This document shows positions 8,345-52,515 of a DNA stretch of 52,515 nucleotides, piece after piece; positions within the stretch are counted from its first letter, which is position 1; every line of letters begins with the position of its first letter. Both the position numbers and the translations under genes were made by a program. Origin of the DNA: Spirochaetes bacterium ADurb.Bin133. Lineage in GTDB: Bacteria > Spirochaetota > GWE2-31-10 > MWDO01. The notes beneath the pieces were generated by a model. That model made no database searches. It saw only the letters and a list, made by a program, of their open reading frames with translations, and had not been told where the DNA came from. The DNA lies in NCBI GenBank assembly GCA_002070605.1, contig MWDO01000018.1, positions 1 to 52,515 of the forward strand. Reading direction: 5' to 3'.

Positions 8345-8446
8345 CTATAGTTTTTACGTATGATAGACGCAATTAGGATAATTTTCTATTGCGAGCGCGT
8401 ATAATAACTGTTTTTGAGCGGCGATATTTAACAGTTGTGTCATTTA
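8345..8446 (-). pseudogene. Decayed fragment of the mobile-element gene (3' end only)
   Basis: This intergenic stretch matches the left end and gene 3' end of the three gene-carrying elements. The run ACGTA..AGACGC, then GATAATTTTCTATTGCGAGCGCGTATAA, CTGTTTTTGAGCGGCGATAT and TTAACAGTTGTGTCATTT follows the copy at 33447-33540 almost base for base, and similarity is lost after about 8446. It therefore represents a truncated fourth copy; the rest of the gene and the right end are gone. No target duplication can be seen. Confidence 0.8.
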
Positions 8447-8461
8447 TTTTATCAAATCCGC

Positions 8462-8490
8462 TTGTATTTTTTTTAAAATTGAAATATAAT
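8462..8490 (+). promoter_or_regulatory. Promoter for the response regulator at 8516
   Basis: TTGTAT (8462-8467), a 17-base spacer and a perfect TATAAT (8485-8490). Transcription would start near 8497, leaving a leader of about 20 bases that holds the AGGGG Shine-Dalgarno before the ATG at 8516. This also argues against the in-frame ATG at 8489, which sits inside the -10 box. Confidence 0.65.
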
Positions 8491-9181: not shown

Positions 9182-9317
9182 GTACTCCCGTCGGTTTTTT
9201 TGGAGATAAAAAAATAATTGACACATATGCGTCGATTTTTTATGCGACAATTGTCGCGCGTTATCGACGCGATGCATATGTGTCAATTTCTCCTCCGCCC
9301 CAAAAACCGACGGACGC
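9182..9317. mobile_element. MITE-like element, 136 bp, hairpin type
   Basis: Ends are GTACTCCCGTCGGTTTTTTT on the left and the complement CCCCAAAAACCGACGGACGC on the right. Inside, inward-facing TTGACACATATGC and GCATATGTGTCAA bracket a core with GCGACAATTGTCGC; the whole can fold into one long hairpin. Flanks TATTCCCAT (9173-9181) and TATTTCTAT (9318-9326) agree at 7 of 9 positions, consistent with an aged 9-bp target duplication. It sits between the divergent starts of the 68-aa gene and proC. No coding capacity. Confidence 0.82.
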
Positions 9318-9413
9318 TATTTCTATAATATAAAAATTTATTAGCTCAAATTATTTCTTGATATTATTCACTTTTTTATATAAAATCGAATTCAAACGAT
9401 TGTGAGGGGAAAA

Positions 9414-12462: not shown

Positions 12463-13110
12463 ATGAATAAAACATTCTTTTTACCGATAGCGCTATTGCT
12501 TCTATTTTCTTGCGTCTCTACCAAAACAAAGATAGAAGACTATTTTGTTGAAGAAGAAAAAATTGAAAATTATAATCTATACGGTTATATCAAATTTGGT
12601 TTAACGCGATGGGACTATAATTTTAAATATAACGGCGTTTTGATAACCGGAAATATTATCAATAAATACTCCCGTCATTTTATTGATTTTAAAATCGGAG
12701 AAAAAATTTTGACGGGAAATATTTATTTTAAAAACAACAAATATAATATAGACGCTTCTTACGACGGAGCGATCGTATCCGGCGATATAACTATACAAAA
12801 TAATACGGAAATATGGAAAATATTATTCAACGATAAAACGCTTGAAGGATCAATTTTCGAAAGTTTTGATTATTACAAATTTGATCTGTTTTTAGATAAA
12901 GTTAAATTGTCCGGAACCCGTTCAAAAAATGCGGGACAGGATCTGTTATCTCTGGATTTTGACAAAAGATATATAATCGGTTTGATAAAAAGCGGCTTCG
13001 GAGATAAACGGTATCTATTAAACGCCGGAGCGCTGTCGGACGAAGAGATACTGTTTTTCCTTCTTTCGGACGCAATACGGCTGATACGAGACGGCGAAAA
13101 TAGAAGATAA
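12463..13110 (+). CDS. Lipoprotein of unknown function
   Basis: 215-residue predicted lipoprotein: signal peptide MNKTFFLPIALLLLFSC with lipobox LFSC. The mature part has repeated short beta hairpins ending in G-x-I or G-x-F (YNGVLITGNI, KILTGNIYFKNNKYN, DGAIVSGDITIQNN, DKTLEGSIF, DKVKLSGTRS), suggesting a beta-roll or repeat-built sheet. No catalytic motif is seen. There is no clear Shine-Dalgarno before the ATG. A 110-bp mobile element is inserted right behind the stop codon. Confidence 0.78.
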   Translation: MNKTFFLPIALLLLFSCVSTKTKIEDYFVEEEKIENYNLYGYIKFGLTRWDYNFKYNGVLITGNIINKYSRHFIDFKIGEKILTGNIYFKNNKYNIDASYDGAIVSGDITIQNNTEIWKILFNDKTLEGSIFESFDYYKFDLFLDKVKLSGTRSKNAGQDLLSLDFDKRYIIGLIKSGFGDKRYLLNAGALSDEEILFFLLSDAIRLIRDGENRR

Positions 13111-13113
13111 TTT

Positions 13114-13223
13114 GTAATCCGTCGGTTTTTTGGGGTAAGGAAATGGATAACGCGAGTCTGTCTCAAAAAAAATGACACATATGAAACAAATATTTTTTAT
13201 TCCCCAAAAAACTGACAGGATAC
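13114..13223. mobile_element. MITE-like element, 110 bp (twin of 36388-36497)
   Basis: Ends GTAATCCGTCGGTTTTTTGG and, on the other strand, GTATCCTGTCAGTTTTTTGG. One inner TGACACATATG lies at 13173. The 100-bp core (13119-13218) matches the reverse complement of 36393-36492 at all but four positions. The 8-bp direct repeat GATAATTT flanks it (13106-13113 and 13224-13231), as expected of a target duplication. It lies between the converging ends of the lipoprotein and aat-like genes, where its T-rich hairpin ends might also stop transcription. Confidence 0.9.
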
Positions 13224-13266
13224 GATAATTTTCATTATTGCGATTTTAAACTTTATGTTAAGCGTT

Positions 13267-14187: not shown

Positions 14188-14895
14188 GCGCCCCATCAGT
14201 TTTTTGGAGTTGGAGAAAAAATAGTTTTATGTATATTTGGGATAATTTTCGATTGCGAGGGCGTATAGTAAGCGTTTTTGATCGGCGATATTCAACAGTT
14301 GTGTCATTTTACCCAAAAAATCATTTTTCAATTTATCAATCTTCAATTTCCTACCAACAAGCTCAAGAAATCCTTCCAACCCGTATTTTACGATGCCGTT
14401 ATAAAAAAACAGTATAATGTCGCGAACCGTCGAGGCTATACTGAATTCGTTATACAAAGAATGCCATCTTTTTATTTGAAGATAATCCGCTTCGCTGATC
14501 CTAAGGTATTTATCCAGCCTTTTATCGTCTGTATTGTCTATAACGGCGTATTCTGAGCGATGATCCCCTATTATTCTTTTCATTTTTGGGACTTTTTTGT
14601 CAATAAGGCGAAACATAGTTTCAAACAGTTTACTGAACGTATTAATTTTGAACTCTTTTAGTAAAAAATCTATGACGTTCTTATTCATAGATTCTGACAC
14701 GATAAAATGGAACAAATGTTTTCTGTTTCTCATAAAGTTTTCTCCTTTTCTTTAACATATATAACAACTAAAAAGTGAAAACGCTTTACAAAAATTTGAA
14801 TAAATTTTAATAAATAACAAATAATTCTACTAATTAAAAAAAATATTCCATATGTGTCAATTTATTTCCCCGCCGCCAAGAAAACGGCGGGGCGC
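14188..14895 (-). mobile_element. Gene-carrying mobile insertion cassette, copy A (708 bp)
   Basis: Left end GCGCCCCATCAGTTTTTTGG; right end, on the other strand, GCGCCCCGCCGTTTTCTTGG. Between them are the 168-aa gene (minus strand), its upstream region, and one inner CATATGTGTCAATTT at 14851-14865. Layout and sequence match copies B and C. No clean target duplication remains (flanks are AT-rich and agree at only about 6 of 9). The insertion lies just upstream of the aat-like promoter. Confidence 0.85.
14227..14733 (-). CDS. Mobile-cassette protein, copy A (168 aa), RHH-like
   Basis: Small basic protein found three times in this window, 85-90% identical between copies, with no frameshift or stop in any. 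Two segments have a strand-helix-helix pattern like ribbon-helix-helix DNA-binding proteins: residues about 8-46 (FHFIVSESM..VIDFLLKEF..FSKLFETMFRLI) and about 75-115 (DKYLRISEADYLQIKRWHSL..ASTVRDIILFFYNG). A helical tail follows. There is no DDE, HUH, Y1 or serine-recombinase motif. A Shine-Dalgarno AAGGAG precedes the ATG. Possibly related to Leptospira DUF1564 proteins, which I cannot verify. It lies within the element 14188-14895. Confidence 0.85.
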   Translation of the reverse strand: MRNRKHLFHFIVSESMNKNVIDFLLKEFKINTFSKLFETMFRLIDKKVPKMKRIIGDHRSEYAVIDNTDDKRLDKYLRISEADYLQIKRWHSLYNEFSIASTVRDIILFFYNGIVKYGLEGFLELVGRKLKIDKLKNDFLGKMTQLLNIADQKRLLYALAIENYPKYT

Positions 14896-18710: not shown

Positions 18711-19496
18711 GTATCCGCCCCGTCGGTTTTTACGTAGAGTAGACGTATTTGGGATAATTCTCGATTACGAGGGCGTATAATAGCTGTTTTCGAGCGTTGA
18801 TGTTTAACAGTTGTGTCATTTTATCCAAAAAGTCGTTTTTCAATTTATCAAGCTTCAATTTCTTACCAACAATCTTAAGGAATTCTTCCAACCCGTATTG
18901 AACGACGCCATTATAGAAAAACATTATAATATCTCGAACTGTTGAAGCCATACCGAATTCGTTATACAAAGAATGCCATCTTTTTATTCGAAGGTAGTCC
19001 GCTTCGCTGATTCTAAGATATTTATCCAACCTTTTATCGTCGGTATTGTCTATAACGGCATATTCGGAGCGGCAATTTCCGATTATTCTCTTCATTTTTG
19101 GGATTTTTTTATCAATAAGGCGAAACATAGTTTCAAATAACTCGCTAAACGTATTAATTTTAAATTCTTTTAGCAAAAAGTTTATAACATTGGTATTCAT
19201 AAATTCTGACACTATAAAGTGAAATAAATGTTTTTTGTTTTTCATAAAGTTTTCTCCTCTTTTCTTTAATATTTCTTTTATATATATAACAACTAAAAGT
19301 AGAAAACTCTTTACAAAAATTTGGATAAATTTTTAGAAAATGATAAATAATTTACTGATTAAAAAAAAATGACACATATGCGTCGATTTCATTTTAACGC
19401 GATAATTGTCGTCGCGCTTTTGGCTCATATGTGTCAATTTCTTTTCCACAAGAATTCATATGCGCCCATTTTTCTCTTCAAAAAACCGACCGGATA
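18711..19496 (-). mobile_element. Gene-carrying mobile insertion cassette, copy B (~786 bp)
   Basis: Left end GTATCCGCCCCGTCGGTTTT; right end AAAAAACCGACCGGATAT. Inside are the 171-aa gene (minus strand) with its promoter region, then an inward-facing pair TGACACATATGCGTCGAT (from 19370) and CATATGTGTCAATTT (to 19440) around a degenerate form of the ATTGTCG hairpin core seen at 9240-9270, and a further CATATGCGCC. It abuts the hflX stop codon. A clean 9-bp target duplication was not found, so the copy may be old or its ends may be slightly off. Confidence 0.83.
18730..19245 (-). CDS. Mobile-cassette protein, copy B (171 aa), RHH-like
   Basis: Paralogue of the proteins at 14227-14733 and 33447-33962, intact. 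It keeps both predicted strand-helix-helix units (FHFIVSEFMNTNVINFLLKE.. and YLRISEADYLRIKRWHSLYN..) and the C-terminal helix LLNINARKQLLYALVIENYP; three extra residues (YST) extend the C-terminus relative to copy A. The Shine-Dalgarno AGAGGAG lies 9-10 bases before the ATG. Upstream, the region with TTGTAAAG and TATATATA is shared by all copies and is probably its promoter. Function not established; a DNA-binding role is inference from the predicted fold. Confidence 0.85.
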   Translation of the reverse strand: MKNKKHLFHFIVSEFMNTNVINFLLKEFKINTFSELFETMFRLIDKKIPKMKRIIGNCRSEYAVIDNTDDKRLDKYLRISEADYLRIKRWHSLYNEFGMASTVRDIIMFFYNGVVQYGLEEFLKIVGKKLKLDKLKNDFLDKMTQLLNINARKQLLYALVIENYPKYVYST

Positions 19497-27699: not shown

Positions 27700-27920
27700 A
27701 TGCTCCCGCTGGTTTTTTGGGGGCGGGGAAAATTCGACGCATATGATGTTAGGATTAAAAATGACACATATGCGATAACAAGAAGTTGAGTTATCTCGAG
27801 AGAGGTCGAGCGTCTCCTTTGTTTTCATAGATTATGGAAAAACATCATATGCGTCAATTTTCTCATAGAGGAGCGCTTGCGTCGCATATGTGTCAATTTT
27901 CCTAAAAAGCCGACAGGCGC
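27700..27920. mobile_element. MITE-like element, 221 bp
   Basis: Left end ATGCTCCCGCTGGTTTTTTG; right end, on the other strand, GCGCCTGTCGGCTTTTTAGG. Two nested inward-facing pairs lie inside: GACGCATATG and TGACACATATG on the left (27734-27770), CATATGCGTCAATTT and CATATGTGTCAATTT on the right (27846-27899). The middle holds a GAGTTATCTCGAGAG-type short palindrome. No target duplication is recognisable. No open frame that I would accept. It separates the divergent ruvA and uvrA starts. Confidence 0.78.
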
Positions 27921-33410: not shown

Positions 33411-34164
33411 GTAACCCGTTATTTTTTTATAGAATAACAAATAATTTTACGTAAGATAGACGTATCTGGGATAATTTTCGATTACGAGCGCGTATAAGAG
33501 CTGTTTTTGAGCGGCGATATTTAACAGTTGTGTCATTTTATCCAAAAAGTCATTTTTCAATTTATCCATCCTCAATTTCTTACCAACAAGCTCAAGAAAT
33601 CCTTCCAACCCGTACTTCATAACGCCGTTATAGAAAAACAAGATAATATCTCGAACTGTCGAAGCCATACCGAATTCGTTATACAAAGAATGCCATCTTT
33701 TTATTTGAAGGTAGTCCGCTTCGCTGATTCTAAGGTATTTATCCAGCCTTTTATCGTCGGAGCTATCTATAACGGCGTATTCGGAGCGGCAATTTCCGAT
33801 TACTCTCTTCATTTTTGGAATTTTTTTGTCAATAAGGCGAAACATAGTTTCAAATAACTCGCTGAACGTATTAATTTTGAACTCTTTTAGTAAAAAATCT
33901 ATAACGTTGTTATTCATAGATTCGGATACGATAAAGTGGAATAGATGTTTTTTGTTTTTCATAAAATTTCCTCCTCTTTTCTTTAATATTTCTTTAATAT
34001 ATATAACAACTAAAAGTAGAAAATTCTTTACAAAAATTCGTATAATTTTTTAGAAAATGATAAATAATTTACTGATTAAAAATATTTGTCCATATGTGTC
34101 AATTTTCTTCTTACACATCATATGCGTCGAATTTCTCCCTCCCGCCAAGAAACCGGCGGGGCGC
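33411..34164 (-). mobile_element. Gene-carrying mobile insertion cassette, copy C, with exact 9-bp target duplication (754 bp)
   Basis: TAATAGAGA stands immediately before (33402-33410) and after (34165-34173) this segment, an exact 9-bp target-site duplication. The left end is GTAACCCGTTATTTTTTTAT, a diverged form of the family terminus; the right end, on the other strand, is GCGCCCCGCCGGTTTCTTGG. It holds the 171-aa gene with promoter, an inner CATATGTGTCAATTT (34092-34106) and CATATGCGTCGA (34118-34129). The intact duplication suggests a fairly recent insertion upstream of metH. No transposase is encoded. Confidence 0.92.
33447..33962 (-). CDS. Mobile-cassette protein, copy C (171 aa), RHH-like
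   Basis: Third intact paralogue of the 168-171 aa protein. Against copy A about 24 of 168 residues differ, mostly conservative changes, in both predicted strand-helix-helix units and in the C-terminal tail, while the reading frame is kept. That pattern suggests selection on the protein. The ribosome binding site GAGGAGG lies 7-8 bases before the ATG and is the strongest of the three. Being inside an element with an exact target duplication, it shows that the gene moves with the element. No catalytic motif is visible; a DNA-binding role is inferred. Confidence 0.87.
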   Translation of the reverse strand: MKNKKHLFHFIVSESMNNNVIDFLLKEFKINTFSELFETMFRLIDKKIPKMKRVIGNCRSEYAVIDSSDDKRLDKYLRISEADYLQIKRWHSLYNEFGMASTVRDIILFFYNGVMKYGLEGFLELVGKKLRMDKLKNDFLDKMTQLLNIAAQKQLLYALVIENYPRYVYLT

Positions 34165-34823: not shown

Positions 34824-36329
34824 TTATTTTGCTCCCAAAGCTTCTTCTTTACGCTTTTTTTCTATTGAAAGCTCTTTGCGTCTGAACATTATCCCAAGTA
34901 TTTGTATACTTATCGGAGGCGCTACCGCTATCATTGCAATTAATCCAAACGCGTCGAGAGCGGGATTGCCGCCCGAAGTTTGAGCCGCCCCCAAAGTTAT
35001 CGGAAGTATAAAAGCGGCCGATACCGGACCTGTCGCGACGCTACCCGAATCAAACGCTATAGCCGAGAAGAGTTTTGGAGTAACCAGACTTAGAATCATG
35101 GCTATTATAAAAGAGGGAGCGATTAGATACCAGACGCTGAATCCCGATAAAACTCGCCACATAGACGCCCCTACTCCAATTGAAACCCCAAGAGCTACGG
35201 AAGTTAGTAGGACAGGTTTACGAATATTTCCGGCGGATACTTCTTCGACCTGTTCCGTTAGAACCCACATAGCCGGTTCCGAGCAAACGACAATAGAACC
35301 GAGTATGCATCCTATTGGAATTAATATCCAACTATAAGATAGCGCCCCTATTTCTCCGCCTATGGCTTTACCGGCCGGAATGAAGCCGGTATTTGCTCCG
35401 ATGAAAAAGAGAATTAAACCGAGCCATGAATAAACAATACCCGTGAGCACCCTTCTTATTTGAGCCGGCGGTAATTTTAGTAAAAAAAGTTGAAAAGCTA
35501 TTATCAGAACTAACACAGGACTTAAAGATATAGTAACGTCTTTAATTGTTTGGGTTATTGTCGAAAAATATTTAAGACCTGAATTTTGATCGTCGGAAGC
35601 AACCATGGCTACCTCGCTTGGAACGGAGGTATTGGCGCCGCTTTTTGCCAGAATAAAACCGTATACAACCATACCCAATATGGGACCTATCGCGGCTATT
35701 CCGGTTGTTCCAAAACTGTCGTCCTCGGCTCCTTTGTCGCCCCTAACTCCGGCGACCCCTATGCCGAGAGCAATGAAAAAAGGAACGGTTAAAGGTCCCG
35801 TAGAAGCTCCCGACGAATCAAAAGCGATAGCGACGTAAACCGGATCTATAAAAGTTGAAAGAACTAACGCCAAACTGTAGCCTATTATTATTATCAGTTT
35901 AAAAGGTATTTGAATAAGAATTCGGCTCATAGCTATTGCAAGAAACAGACCCAATCCTGCAGAGACAGTAAGAATAAGAGCGCCGGATTTGATATTTCCG
36001 GTTACAGACTCGACCAAGTCGCCTTGCACTTTTAAATTCGGTTCGGCAACTGTGATAACAAAACCGGTAATAGCAATTACGACAATAATTAACGGCAAAT
36101 TTTTTGTTCTGGTTAAAGACGCTCCCAACATTGAACCGGCCGGAACAATACCTATATCGACCCCCGCAAGAAATATTCCGAGTCCGAGTATTACAAAAAC
36201 CGAGCCTATAAAGAATTCTATAAGAGTAGTCAAAGGTAATGGCGCGATTGTAAAATGCAATATAGCTACGACAATATCTACCGGAATTATCGCTAAAGCC
36301 GTCTCTTTTAATTTTTTTATGATATCCAT
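34824..36329 (-). CDS. DUF1538 family membrane transporter
   Basis: A 501-residue polytopic membrane protein with about 12 hydrophobic segments and an internal duplication of two DUF1538 units: FFIGSVFVILGLGIFLAGVD, then GIVPAGSMLGASL in the first half and GANTGFIPAGKAIGGEIG in the second, each followed by an AEP motif (VAEPN, CSEPAMWV) and an FDSGxxxTGP motif (AFDSSGASTGPLTVPF, AFDSGSVATGPVSAAF). The substrate of the family is not established. CGGGG precedes the ATG. Cotranscribed with the double PII protein, which probably regulates it. Confidence 0.9.
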   Translation of the reverse strand: MDIIKKLKETALAIIPVDIVVAILHFTIAPLPLTTLIEFFIGSVFVILGLGIFLAGVDIGIVPAGSMLGASLTRTKNLPLIIVVIAITGFVITVAEPNLKVQGDLVESVTGNIKSGALILTVSAGLGLFLAIAMSRILIQIPFKLIIIIGYSLALVLSTFIDPVYVAIAFDSSGASTGPLTVPFFIALGIGVAGVRGDKGAEDDSFGTTGIAAIGPILGMVVYGFILAKSGANTSVPSEVAMVASDDQNSGLKYFSTITQTIKDVTISLSPVLVLIIAFQLFLLKLPPAQIRRVLTGIVYSWLGLILFFIGANTGFIPAGKAIGGEIGALSYSWILIPIGCILGSIVVCSEPAMWVLTEQVEEVSAGNIRKPVLLTSVALGVSIGVGASMWRVLSGFSVWYLIAPSFIIAMILSLVTPKLFSAIAFDSGSVATGPVSAAFILPITLGAAQTSGGNPALDAFGLIAMIAVAPPISIQILGIMFRRKELSIEKKRKEEALGAK

Positions 36330-36387
36330 TTTGCCCCGAATATAGCGCTTATTTAAGTTTTATTCAAGATATTTTTTTCGATATTTT

Positions 36388-36497
36388 GTAAGCCGTCAGT
36401 TTTTTGGGGAATAAAAAATATTTGTTTCATATGTGTCAATTTTTTTGAGACAGACTTGCGTTATCCATTTCCTTACCCCAAAAAACTGACGGAGTAC
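36388..36497. mobile_element. MITE-like element, 110 bp, with exact 9-bp target duplication (twin of 13114-13223)
   Basis: CGATATTTT stands immediately before (36379-36387) and after (36498-36506). The ends are GTAAGCCGTCAGTTTTTTGG and, on the other strand, GTACTCCGTCAGTTTTTTGG. One inner half-site CATATGTGTCAATTT lies at 36430-36444. Its core is about 96% identical, in reverse orientation, to the element at 13114. It lies between the DUF1538 gene start and the end of the esterase gene. No coding capacity. Confidence 0.93.
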
Positions 36498-36531
36498 CGA
36501 TATTTTTTTAAAAACATACGAAATACTAGAT

Positions 36532-37416
36532 TTATTCTGCAATTTTTTTGAGAAAATTTGTAAAAATATCTTGGCAAGTTGTCCAGTGATCCCCCTCAGT
36601 TTCGCAGGAAATATTTGGAACGCCTTTTTCAGTTAATTTTTGGGCGAACAGATTTACCGACCAGTTAAAACCTGGTAGGTCTTCGGTCGCCGACGACATA
36701 ACTATAAAGGGGAATTTATCGTTATTTTCCAATAGGTAAAACGGATTGTATTCGTTCCATTTCTCTTTAGAGCCGAAAGCGTTTGATAACATAGTTTTTA
36801 GGATAAATATCTGATTACGACTCATTTTAAGTTTTTTACCTGTTTCTTCAAAATCGTCGTCCCATGGCGAAAACGGAGCGGTATAAGGCGAAATACAGCA
36901 AACTACGGGGAAAATATCGGGATTTCTCATAGATAGAGATAGAGCGTTGTATCCGCCGAGAGAATGTCCGATTAGAAAAGTTTTTTCGCCTTTTACGTCA
37001 AGTTTTGTCTTAAAATAGGGAACAATCTCTTTAATCATCAGCGTTTCCAGATCGTCGGAGTACGGTTTGGGAGCGTCCTCAAGAAACATAAAAGCGTTAC
37101 TTAAACTTATCGCTACGACCGAATATTCAGGCAAATTGGGATTATTTTTGAGAACCGCATAATATTTTGAGCCGAATCCGTTTTTTTCAGCCCACTCCTC
37201 TTCCGTTCTGTTAAATCCGTGAAGATAAAATATTAAATGCCGCTTGTCTTTTCCCTCGACGTAGAGGTATCTTAATTCCAGTTTGTTTTTGCCGAAAAAC
37301 TCCTTACCTTGCGTATATGCAATGTTTTCATCGTATTTTTTAGGCTTTTCGCCGAAACTAATCTTCGAGCAAGAAGATAGAATTATAAATATAAGAAAGA
37401 ATTTTAGAAATTTCAT
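36532..37416 (-). CDS. Esterase-type alpha/beta-hydrolase lipoprotein
   Basis: A 294-residue predicted lipoprotein hydrolase. The start at 37416 gives the signal peptide MKFLKFFLIFIILSSC (lipobox LSSC) and follows AAAAGGGTTTGAT; the longer in-frame start at 37446 would hide the signal. The alpha/beta-hydrolase marks are HLIFYLHGFNRTEEEW (oxyanion loop HGF), the nucleophile elbow FLIGHSLGGYNAL (Ser of GHSLG), an acidic residue near SSATEDLPGF and the His of EGDHWTTC. It resembles the esterase D/tributyrin-esterase group. Substrate unknown; it acts outside the inner membrane. Monocistronic. Confidence 0.85.
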   Translation of the reverse strand: MKFLKFFLIFIILSSCSKISFGEKPKKYDENIAYTQGKEFFGKNKLELRYLYVEGKDKRHLIFYLHGFNRTEEEWAEKNGFGSKYYAVLKNNPNLPEYSVVAISLSNAFMFLEDAPKPYSDDLETLMIKEIVPYFKTKLDVKGEKTFLIGHSLGGYNALSLSMRNPDIFPVVCCISPYTAPFSPWDDDFEETGKKLKMSRNQIFILKTMLSNAFGSKEKWNEYNPFYLLENNDKFPFIVMSSATEDLPGFNWSVNLFAQKLTEKGVPNISCETEGDHWTTCQDIFTNFLKKIAE

Positions 37417-37506
37417 ATCAAACCCTTTTAAAATGTTATCCCGCATTCTATATAATTAAATAAAAAAAATCAAGAGTTGAAAATATTAAGATTAATAATA
37501 ATTTTC

Positions 37507-41649: not shown

Positions 41650-41790
41650 AGTATGCGCCCTATGTTTTTTTTTTGGGGCGGGAGAAAAACCGACGCATTT
41701 GAAATTGACACATATGGAGCTATATACGCCTCGTCGCTCCCCGATGAGGTCTGTGAGAATTAAAGCGCACAAATTCCTAATACCTATTAT

Positions 41791-41895
41791 TTACCAAATA
41801 ACTTGAACGTCATATATCTCGGTTACTTTTAACGAAAGTTTTTCAGGAGAAGATATCATCCATAAGAATATGTGAGTATCAATCAGGTATTTCAC
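41791..41895 (-). pseudogene. Truncated PIN-domain (VapC-type) toxin
   Basis: Starting at a GTG that overlaps the antitoxin stop codon by 2 bases, the frame reads VKYLIDTHIFLWMISSPEKL, then SLKVTEIYDVQVIW and a stop after 34 residues. This is the start of a PIN ribonuclease toxin (YLIDTHxFLW with the first catalytic Asp, then the SPEKLS helix); complete ones have about 125-130 residues. The remaining acidic residues are missing, so it is not functional. The truncation lies next to repeat-element sequence, which may have caused it. Confidence 0.8.
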
Positions 41896-42125
41896 TTATA
41901 GAAATCTCCGATTATTGAATCTGGAAGGGGAGCGTCAAAATCATCGCTCATCCATATTTTCCCATTTTCTTTGCCCAAAATTCTTTTGTTTTTTGATGTT
42001 TTATAAGGCATTAATTTTGCGATTGGATTATTTGAGTCTTTAATAACAATTTCTTCTCCGTTTTTGATTTTTGAAAGAAAAACGTCGATATTATTTTGTA
42101 TTTCATTAATAGTAACTTCAAGCAT
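41892..42125 (-). CDS. Phd/YefM-type antitoxin (partner toxin broken)
   Basis: A 77-residue antitoxin of the Phd/YefM class. The N-terminal DNA-binding part is MLEVTINEIQNNIDVFLSKI, followed by GEEIVIKDSNNPIAKLMPY, a standard core of the family, and a C-terminal toxin-binding tail (ENGKIWMSDDFDAPLPDSII) of the form seen in PIN-toxin partners. AAGGA lies 7 bases before the ATG. The toxin gene follows with a GTGA overlap but is cut short, leaving an orphan antitoxin that may still autoregulate or neutralise other toxins. It lies within the composite element 41655-42646. Confidence 0.88.
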   Translation of the reverse strand: MLEVTINEIQNNIDVFLSKIKNGEEIVIKDSNNPIAKLMPYKTSKNKRILGKENGKIWMSDDFDAPLPDSIIGDFYK

Positions 42126-42264
42126 ATAATCGTCCTTATAAGAAATATATATAAATTAAAGGCAATCGTCAATTATATCTTTGTATTTTTTAGTCCCCGT
42201 CGGTTTTTTTTGCGAAACGGCAACTTTTGAGACAAATGACGCATACGCGGTTTTTTATTTCCTC

Positions 42265-42450
42265 GCTCCCCGACAAAAAATGACACATATGGAGCTATAT
42301 ACGCCGCGTCGCTCCTCGATAGAAAAATGACACATATGGAGCTACATACGCCGCGCCGCGCTCCCCGACAAAATTTGACACATATGGAGCTACATGCGCC
42401 GCGGCTACTCCCCGATAAATTTTGACACATATGGAGCTATATGCCGCGAC
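42265..42450. repeat. Tandem array of 47-48-bp units, four copies
   Basis: Units contain GCTCCCCGACAAAA, TTGACACATATGGAGCTA and CATACGCCGCG. The TGACACATATG cores start at 42281, 42328, 42376 and 42423 (periods 47, 48, 47). Related single units are at 41705-41740 and, without the array, at 52285-52335. Because the whole unit repeats with no unique spacer, this is not a CRISPR. Confidence 0.9.
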
Positions 42451-42453
42451 TAT

Positions 42454-42505
42454 TGAACCCTAGATTTCGCGTCCCGAGCGGATGCGAGGGGAAATCGAGG
42501 GTTCA
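42454..42505. repeat. Imperfect 20-bp inverted repeat
   Basis: TGAACCCTAGATTTCGCG on the left and CGAGGGGAAATCGAGGGTTCA-like sequence on the right (arms about 42454-42473 and 42486-42505) form a hairpin with a 12-base loop. It interrupts the half-site spacing of the array and is unlike the rest of the element. Possibly the ends of a different small element or a structured RNA. Confidence 0.55.
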
Positions 42506-42670
42506 GTTCTACACATAACCATCGCGGCTACTCCCCGGTGTAATTTGACACATATGCTACGCGTCGATAACGCGCGACAATTGTCGCATAAAAATTCGAC
42601 GCATATGGAACAGATGTTTTTTATTCCCCAAAAAAACATAGGGCGCTTGAAGCGCTACTTTTTGAGTTTT

Positions 42671-52260: not shown

Positions 52261-52428
52261 GCGCCCGTCGGTTTTTTGGAAAATTAACGTATATGGAGCT
52301 GCATGCGCCGCAGCGCTCCCCGACGAATAAATTGACACATATGGGACGGATTGGGACTGCTCCTATAAATTGACACATATGCGTCTTTTTTTCATCTAGA
52401 AATGTATGCGTCCCATATGTGTCAATTT
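52261..52428. mobile_element. Partial repeat element at the window's right edge
   Basis: Left terminus GCGCCCGTCGGTTTTTTGG is clear. It is followed by TATGGAGCTGCATGCGCCGC..GCTCCCCGAC, one array-type unit, and inner half-sites TTGACACATATG at 52331 and 52371 and CATATGTGTCAATTT to 52427. A right terminus is not visible before the window ends, so the element is truncated or has a diverged end. It lies 20 bases after the ATP-grasp fusion gene. Confidence 0.72.
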
Positions 52429-52515
52429 TATTTTCAGTATCATCTATGGTAAAAGTCAACGATAATCTTTGTTTTTTTTTAACATTTTAATCTATCGTCT
52501 ATAAATACAGCCTCA

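Follow-up and report, generated by a model that had tools for sequence, protein, structure and literature searches.

The window analysed here, a stretch of 52,515 nt, is one complete contig (C18) of the 2.99-Mb genome (103 contigs, 95.6% complete) of an uncultured spirochaete. Between the ORFs at 34824-36329 and 36532-37446 lies a 110-bp sequence that starts with GTAAGCCGTC and is bounded by TIRs; its features, and those of its relatives within the contig, are listed in Table 1. The longest ORF inside it has 14 codons, and its size falls within the 50-500 bp range of MITEs. Short, without a transposase gene, equipped with TIRs, flanked by a target duplication and absent from the orthologous site of a same-genus relative (G001, see below), the sequence at 36388-36497 is a non-autonomous DNA transposon (MITE).

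Table 1. The 110-bp element, its second copy and related features in the window (RHH, ribbon-helix-helix; strand "." where none applies).
Feature	Position	Strand	Basis or remarks
RHH gene remnant, 3' end (RHH by prediction)	8352..8476	-	
Related TIR element, ~137 bp, two inner motifs	9182..9318	.	flanks TATTCCCAT / TATTTCTAT
Target duplication GATAATTT, left	13106..13113	.	exact 8 bp; includes stop codon of ORF 12463-13110
Inverted second MITE copy	13114..13223	.	4/100 core differences to 36388 copy
Inner motif TGACACATATG of second copy	13173..13183	+	motif search
Target duplication GATAATTT, right	13224..13231	.	exact 8 bp
TIR-bounded element with 168-aa predicted RHH gene (14227-14733)	14193..14893	-	
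TIR-bounded element with 171-aa predicted RHH gene (18730-19245)	18718..19494	-	
Related TIR element, four inner motif sites	27702..27915	.	two exact, two TGACGCATATG-like
Gene for 171-aa predicted tandem RHH protein	33447..33962	-	motif ~130 nt upstream (34091-34101)
Target duplication CGATATTTT, left	36379..36387	.	exact 9 bp
110-bp MITE	36388..36497	.	TIRs and exact 9-bp duplication; empty site in G001
Left TIR GTAAGCCGTCAGTTTTTTGGGG	36388..36409	+	20/22 positions as in right TIR
Inner motif TGACACATATG, half of palindrome GACACATATGTGTC	36428..36438	-	motif search
Right TIR GTACTCCGTCAGTTTTTTGGGG	36476..36497	- (as read on minus strand)	TIR comparison
Target duplication CGATATTTT, right	36498..36506	.	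exact 9 bp
Composite region, CGCCCTATGTTTTTT variant TIRs at bounds	41656..42651	.	array of 47-48-bp motif units at 42261-42450
TIR element running into end B of multicopy element X	52263..52515	.	at contig end

The first-pass annotation of this DNA had described an exact 9-bp repeat on both sides of the element and a nearly identical inverted copy, the core differing at about four positions from the reverse complement of 13119-13218, with an 8-bp flanking repeat of its own. Both repeats are there (at the second copy the ninth base pair mismatches), and the two copies differ at exactly four of 100 core positions (36393-36492) and at seven of 110 over the whole length. Each copy also carries, as had been noted, a single inner "half-site", TGACACATATG, on opposite strands. 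That term holds for the sequence, since the motif in the form TTGACACATATG is one half of the palindrome TTGACACATATGTGTCAA; the binding of a protein to it is our inference. At the related element at 9182-9318, the non-identical flanks suggest a decayed 9-bp duplication.

In the same-genus relative G001, whose sequences coincide with those of the MAG 'Spirochaetes bacterium Go_SlDig_bin_318' (JAGOCL01), as judged by identical homologues in both, an orthologue of ORF 34824-36329 (78% protein identity) is followed by an orthologue of ORF 36532-37446 (89%), with no element between them. When the window flanks were joined, keeping one copy of the duplication, they aligned to G001 with 81% identity over 400 bp, straight through the junction; with the element left in place, the alignment breaks into two pieces. 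The site of a further copy (L003) is likewise empty in G001 (76% over 240 bp). Searches of G001 returned TIR or motif scraps only, and no full MITE. The two tested sites being uninterrupted in G001, these insertions therefore postdate the species split, or else G001 has lost both elements exact to the base.

The 96% core identity of the two window copies might also be that of an old segmental duplication or of a gene-conversion product. We give this next to no credence: the flanks differ outside the element and each copy has its own duplication, more than 20 further elements occupy unrelated sites with duplications, and for the copy at 36388 the empty orthologous site in G001 refutes it, so that an old segmental duplication is excluded there. 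The recent, independent insertions postulated in the first-pass annotation are thus supported by the separate duplications, the differing flanks and the empty site.

A BLASTN search with the 110-bp element gave 52 matches in the genome that it comes from, and in 21 of these the identity reaches 85% or more across most of the length; 19 oriented full-length copies of this subfamily have a mean identity of 89%. The TIR of the family (~22 bp) reads GTAAYCCGTCRGTTTTTTGGGG, and its core occurs 283 times in the genome with at most one mismatch, against 0 for the reversed pattern. We extracted 57 distinct TIR-bounded elements from the fetched loci, setting their ends 5 nt outside the TIR core. An exact target duplication flanks 27 of them (15 of 9 bp and 12 of 8 bp), a proportion that is not the rate of a random sample, the loci having been chosen by a match to the element, the TIR or the RHH gene. 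With the right flanks swapped among the 57 elements, the shuffle control yielded a mean of 0.025 duplications and a maximum of one. The commonest left end is GTAAT (23 of 57). Because about half of the elements are without a recognisable duplication, some of them are old or rearranged.

Element sizes range from 84 to ~780 bp. The earlier proposal that the 110-bp form may be the minimal mobile unit is not supported as it stood: the shortest element (84 bp; L072) has a target duplication too, and the 110-bp form is but one subfamily of a modular family. The elements are mosaics with junctions at TTGACACATATG, among whose modules we recognised by eye a 47-48-bp unit, GCGACAATTGTCGC palindromes and others. 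The RNA fold of the 110-bp element is a single long hairpin formed by the TIRs (-38.4 kcal/mol, z about -7), which may affect transcripts that read through it. Such a strong hairpin (-38 kcal/mol) and the modular mosaics would also suit palindromes of the REP/BIME type, disseminated by a RAYT (Y1) transposase, or simple attenuators of transcription. We consider this very improbable, as the target duplications of 8-9 bp are real and the TIRs measure ~22 bp, neither of which is known from REP elements, and an Rfam search of the window found no family. The MITE had no match in phages; seven matches to the TIR in viral contigs (six with a GC content of at least 0.5, one of 0.41), none of them accompanied by the motif, were judged to be chance.

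In addition to the short elements, elements of ~710-780 bp with the same TIRs carry an ORF of 168-171 aa. There are 83 matches to this gene in the genome, about 55 of them full-length and nearly all of these free of stop codons, and one gene-bearing element (L058) has an 8-bp duplication. For 47 full-length copies we obtained a median dS of 0.45, a minimum dS of 0.18 and a dN/dS of 0.12, values that gene conversion could distort; they indicate that the gene copies remain under purifying selection. The closest copies differing by a dS of at least 0.18, the gene has therefore not spread in the latest MITE burst.

The AlphaFold2 model of the 171-aa protein (pLDDT 82, pTM 0.80) predicts two beta-alpha-alpha units, with strands at 5-13 and 72-80 and two helices after each. 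The best Foldseek matches in the PDB are F-plasmid relaxosome chains, at a non-significant E of 0.3-1 and a probability of up to 0.95. On the strength of this model, we read the product as a tandem RHH DNA-binding protein that would have no catalytic domain. It found no significant match in Pfam, NCBIfam, PADLOC, PHROGs, the PDB (by sequence) or plasmids; against curated RHH families there were sub-threshold matches only, of single members to RHH_1/RHH_3 (E 0.04). An identity as DUF1564 was considered; HMM comparison did not support it, and we found no papers on that family. The protein would share its two predicted beta-alpha-alpha units per chain with TraY/TraM-type relaxosome proteins of the F plasmid and with other RHH proteins, but differs from the former in lacking a significant sequence or fold E-value and a known relaxase context, and in that its gene has been amplified inside TIR elements. 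Distant homologues occur in the same order (L107, L111, L114, L117 and L120 in G005, thus in several copies, and L108 in G008); their fetched flanks contain no copy of the inner motif.

The right half of the MITE resembles a gene-bearing element from which the gene has been removed: it matches these elements at 94% over the 36 bp that end at AAACAAATATTTTT ahead of the gene, and then, from TATTCCCC onwards, the 3' side of the gene at 89-90% over 36-39 bp. It would thus correspond to a ~720-bp member minus its gene, the motif and AAACAAATATTTTT being joined to TATTCCCC and the TIR. Because the two matching pieces overlap at ATTTTT, this right half probably arose when two short repeats recombined and the sequence between them was deleted. 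For the left module of the MITE, no clear counterpart was seen in the gene-bearing elements.

This relationship might make the ~720-bp element the autonomous parent of the family, and the 171-aa protein a transposase of a new type, or an essential part of one. The same TIRs, within which this is the only gene found repeatedly, the ~55 full-length, nearly all stop-free copies with their low dN/dS and our failure to find a classical transposase with these ends in the bin all speak for it. We nevertheless hold it to be unlikely: no nuclease fold is seen in the predicted two RHH domains plus helices, the gene did not spread along with the MITE burst, most gene copies are without a duplication, and diverged homologues (L091-L093) lie outside TIR elements.

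We consider it highly probable that the features of the locus are jointly explained by recent MITE insertions with 8-9-bp target duplications, with a DDE-type transposase acting in trans, an inner motif that is a half-operator of the RHH protein and a right half descended from a gene-deleted member. What the sequences show is that the 110-bp unit has entered many unrelated places, most of them intergenic, each time duplicating 8-9 bp of target, and that it did so after the split from the same-genus relative; the putative transposase would bind the TIRs and cut the target with a stagger of 8-9 bp. The inner TTGACACATATG would be half of the operator of the tandem RHH protein encoded by the larger members, and the MITEs would thereby scatter putative binding sites of that protein.

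Exact copies of TTGACACATATG number 791 per genome, while the control gave 0. Of 48 RHH gene copies, 47 have a motif 104-155 nt (~126 nt) ahead of the start codon (ATG), and in 18 the 200 nt preceding the gene include the complete palindrome. The diverged RHH homologues in G001 (38-46% identity) are likewise preceded by the motif at about this spacing; a second one lies, in most of them, within the 3' coding region, where it provides the codons for THM. TGACACATATG was seen both upstream of and inside the RHH coding sequence (THM) at L091-L093 and L099-L104 (G001 homologues in L099-L104). Such a pair of upstream and coding motifs would fit two-operator looping, and the simplest reading of the sequences would have the protein-operator pair predate the MITE burst.

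It is conceivable, and we put it forward tentatively, that the elements are no longer chiefly mobile and are now kept as operators of the RHH protein, dispersed over the genome in the service of regulation or chromosome organisation. The 791 exact motifs per genome, the selection on the RHH genes and their fixed arrangement with the motif, which is conserved in the sister species, are in line with this possibility; the fresh duplications and species-specific insertions attest instead to mobility in the recent past. It is compatible with the explanation by recent MITE insertions.

The bin yielded no transposase gene bounded by TIRs of this family. PF03050 (IS66) had no match there (G000) or in the sister G001, PF01609 (IS4/IS5-type) and PF12762 (IS1595) had none in the bin, and the PF06782 (ISLre2-type) profile also had none, although control genomes were equally silent with it. 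IS66-family TIRs begin with GTAAGCG and are associated with 8-bp direct repeats (PMC11946415); an end of that family reads GTAACCGTCCGGGCA (PMC12888890). The GTAA start and the 8-9-bp duplications of our family recall these, but 9-bp duplications here outnumber those of 8 bp, the remaining TIR (GTTTTTTGGGG) differs and a PF03050 gene is absent from the bin. Membership in IS66 was therefore not adopted; by analogy, the GTAA ends make an IS66-like enzyme the best lead for the transposase.

Of 60 contig starts inspected, about one third lie in a gene-bearing element and about another third in the multicopy element X. Because the assembly breaks at repeats and the body of element X is missing, a multicopy transposase could be missing likewise. 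Element X was itself considered as the hidden autonomous element and dismissed: with short ends of its own and a position within the motif, it does not supply the GTAA TIRs. It was observed in the window at 52430-52515 and at L236, L187 (1-233), L217, L239 and L240. The short form (~390 bp) has a promoter-like start, a hairpin-rich leader and an RBS followed by ATGACAATTATTAAG; the short ends are CTAAGGTAAAA and CTATGGTAAAA, and its seat is between CATATG and ATGTGTC of the motif palindrome. Of the long form, an ORF ending in DKLMKKFIDKEIYEAVFIDDRLKC is seen, the body being absent from the bin. Our guess is that element X behaves like a bridge-RNA (IS110-like) element. Coding fragments that by eye resemble a transposase of the IS1202/ISNCY kind were seen at further contig starts (L194, L207, L211 and L212; L210 and L215), with ends that include AAAGTCTCATTTTTTGAAAT and GAACGACA.

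Bacterial MITEs are 50-500 bp long, have no transposase gene, carry TIRs flanked by a target duplication, are multicopy and mostly intergenic and form hairpins (PMC10969869). The 110-bp element resembles them in size, TIRs, duplication, copy number, intergenic sites and hairpin, but belongs to a size series in which shared internal modules are joined at one 12-bp motif and the larger members carry a gene, predicted to be RHH, under selection, while a candidate parent transposase was not found in the bin. The BOX elements of Streptococcus pneumoniae are modular composite repeats with TIRs, duplications, a variable number of internal modules, nested insertions and RNA hairpins (PMC3049150). The likeness to our modular, hairpin-forming TIR repeats with duplications is one of architecture, with no sequence relation claimed; in our family, a palindromic half-site stands between the modules, and a conserved RHH gene is carried by some of the elements.

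The MITE itself is ordinary in kind and firmly established, and its family unusual, the oddity being a selected, 50-fold amplified RHH gene together with ~800 copies of the motif. From a poorly known spirochaete lineage, we offer a clear example in nature of MITEs that have recently spread in a burst, with a sister species in which insertion sites are empty. It raises the question why a genome should retain over 50 copies, intact and under selection, of a putative DNA-binding gene beside ~800 copies of its presumed site. One speculative reading would be a partnership of transposon and regulator, with more than 50 selected RHH copies and ~800 half-sites scattered by MITEs, which might constitute a regulon or organise the chromosome, or in which transposition might require the RHH protein. 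If the protein does bind the motif, mobile elements would have spread a transcription factor gene together with its operators.

The units of the array at 42261-42450 begin with TGACACATATGGAGCTAYATRCGCCGCG and run to CTCCCCGA, and each can form a GGAGC/GCTCC stem. Between TIR elements, in the window at 41775-42170 and in L130 at 1100-1720, lie small genes that by eye are toxin-antitoxin-like (Phd-like; PIN/CopG-like).
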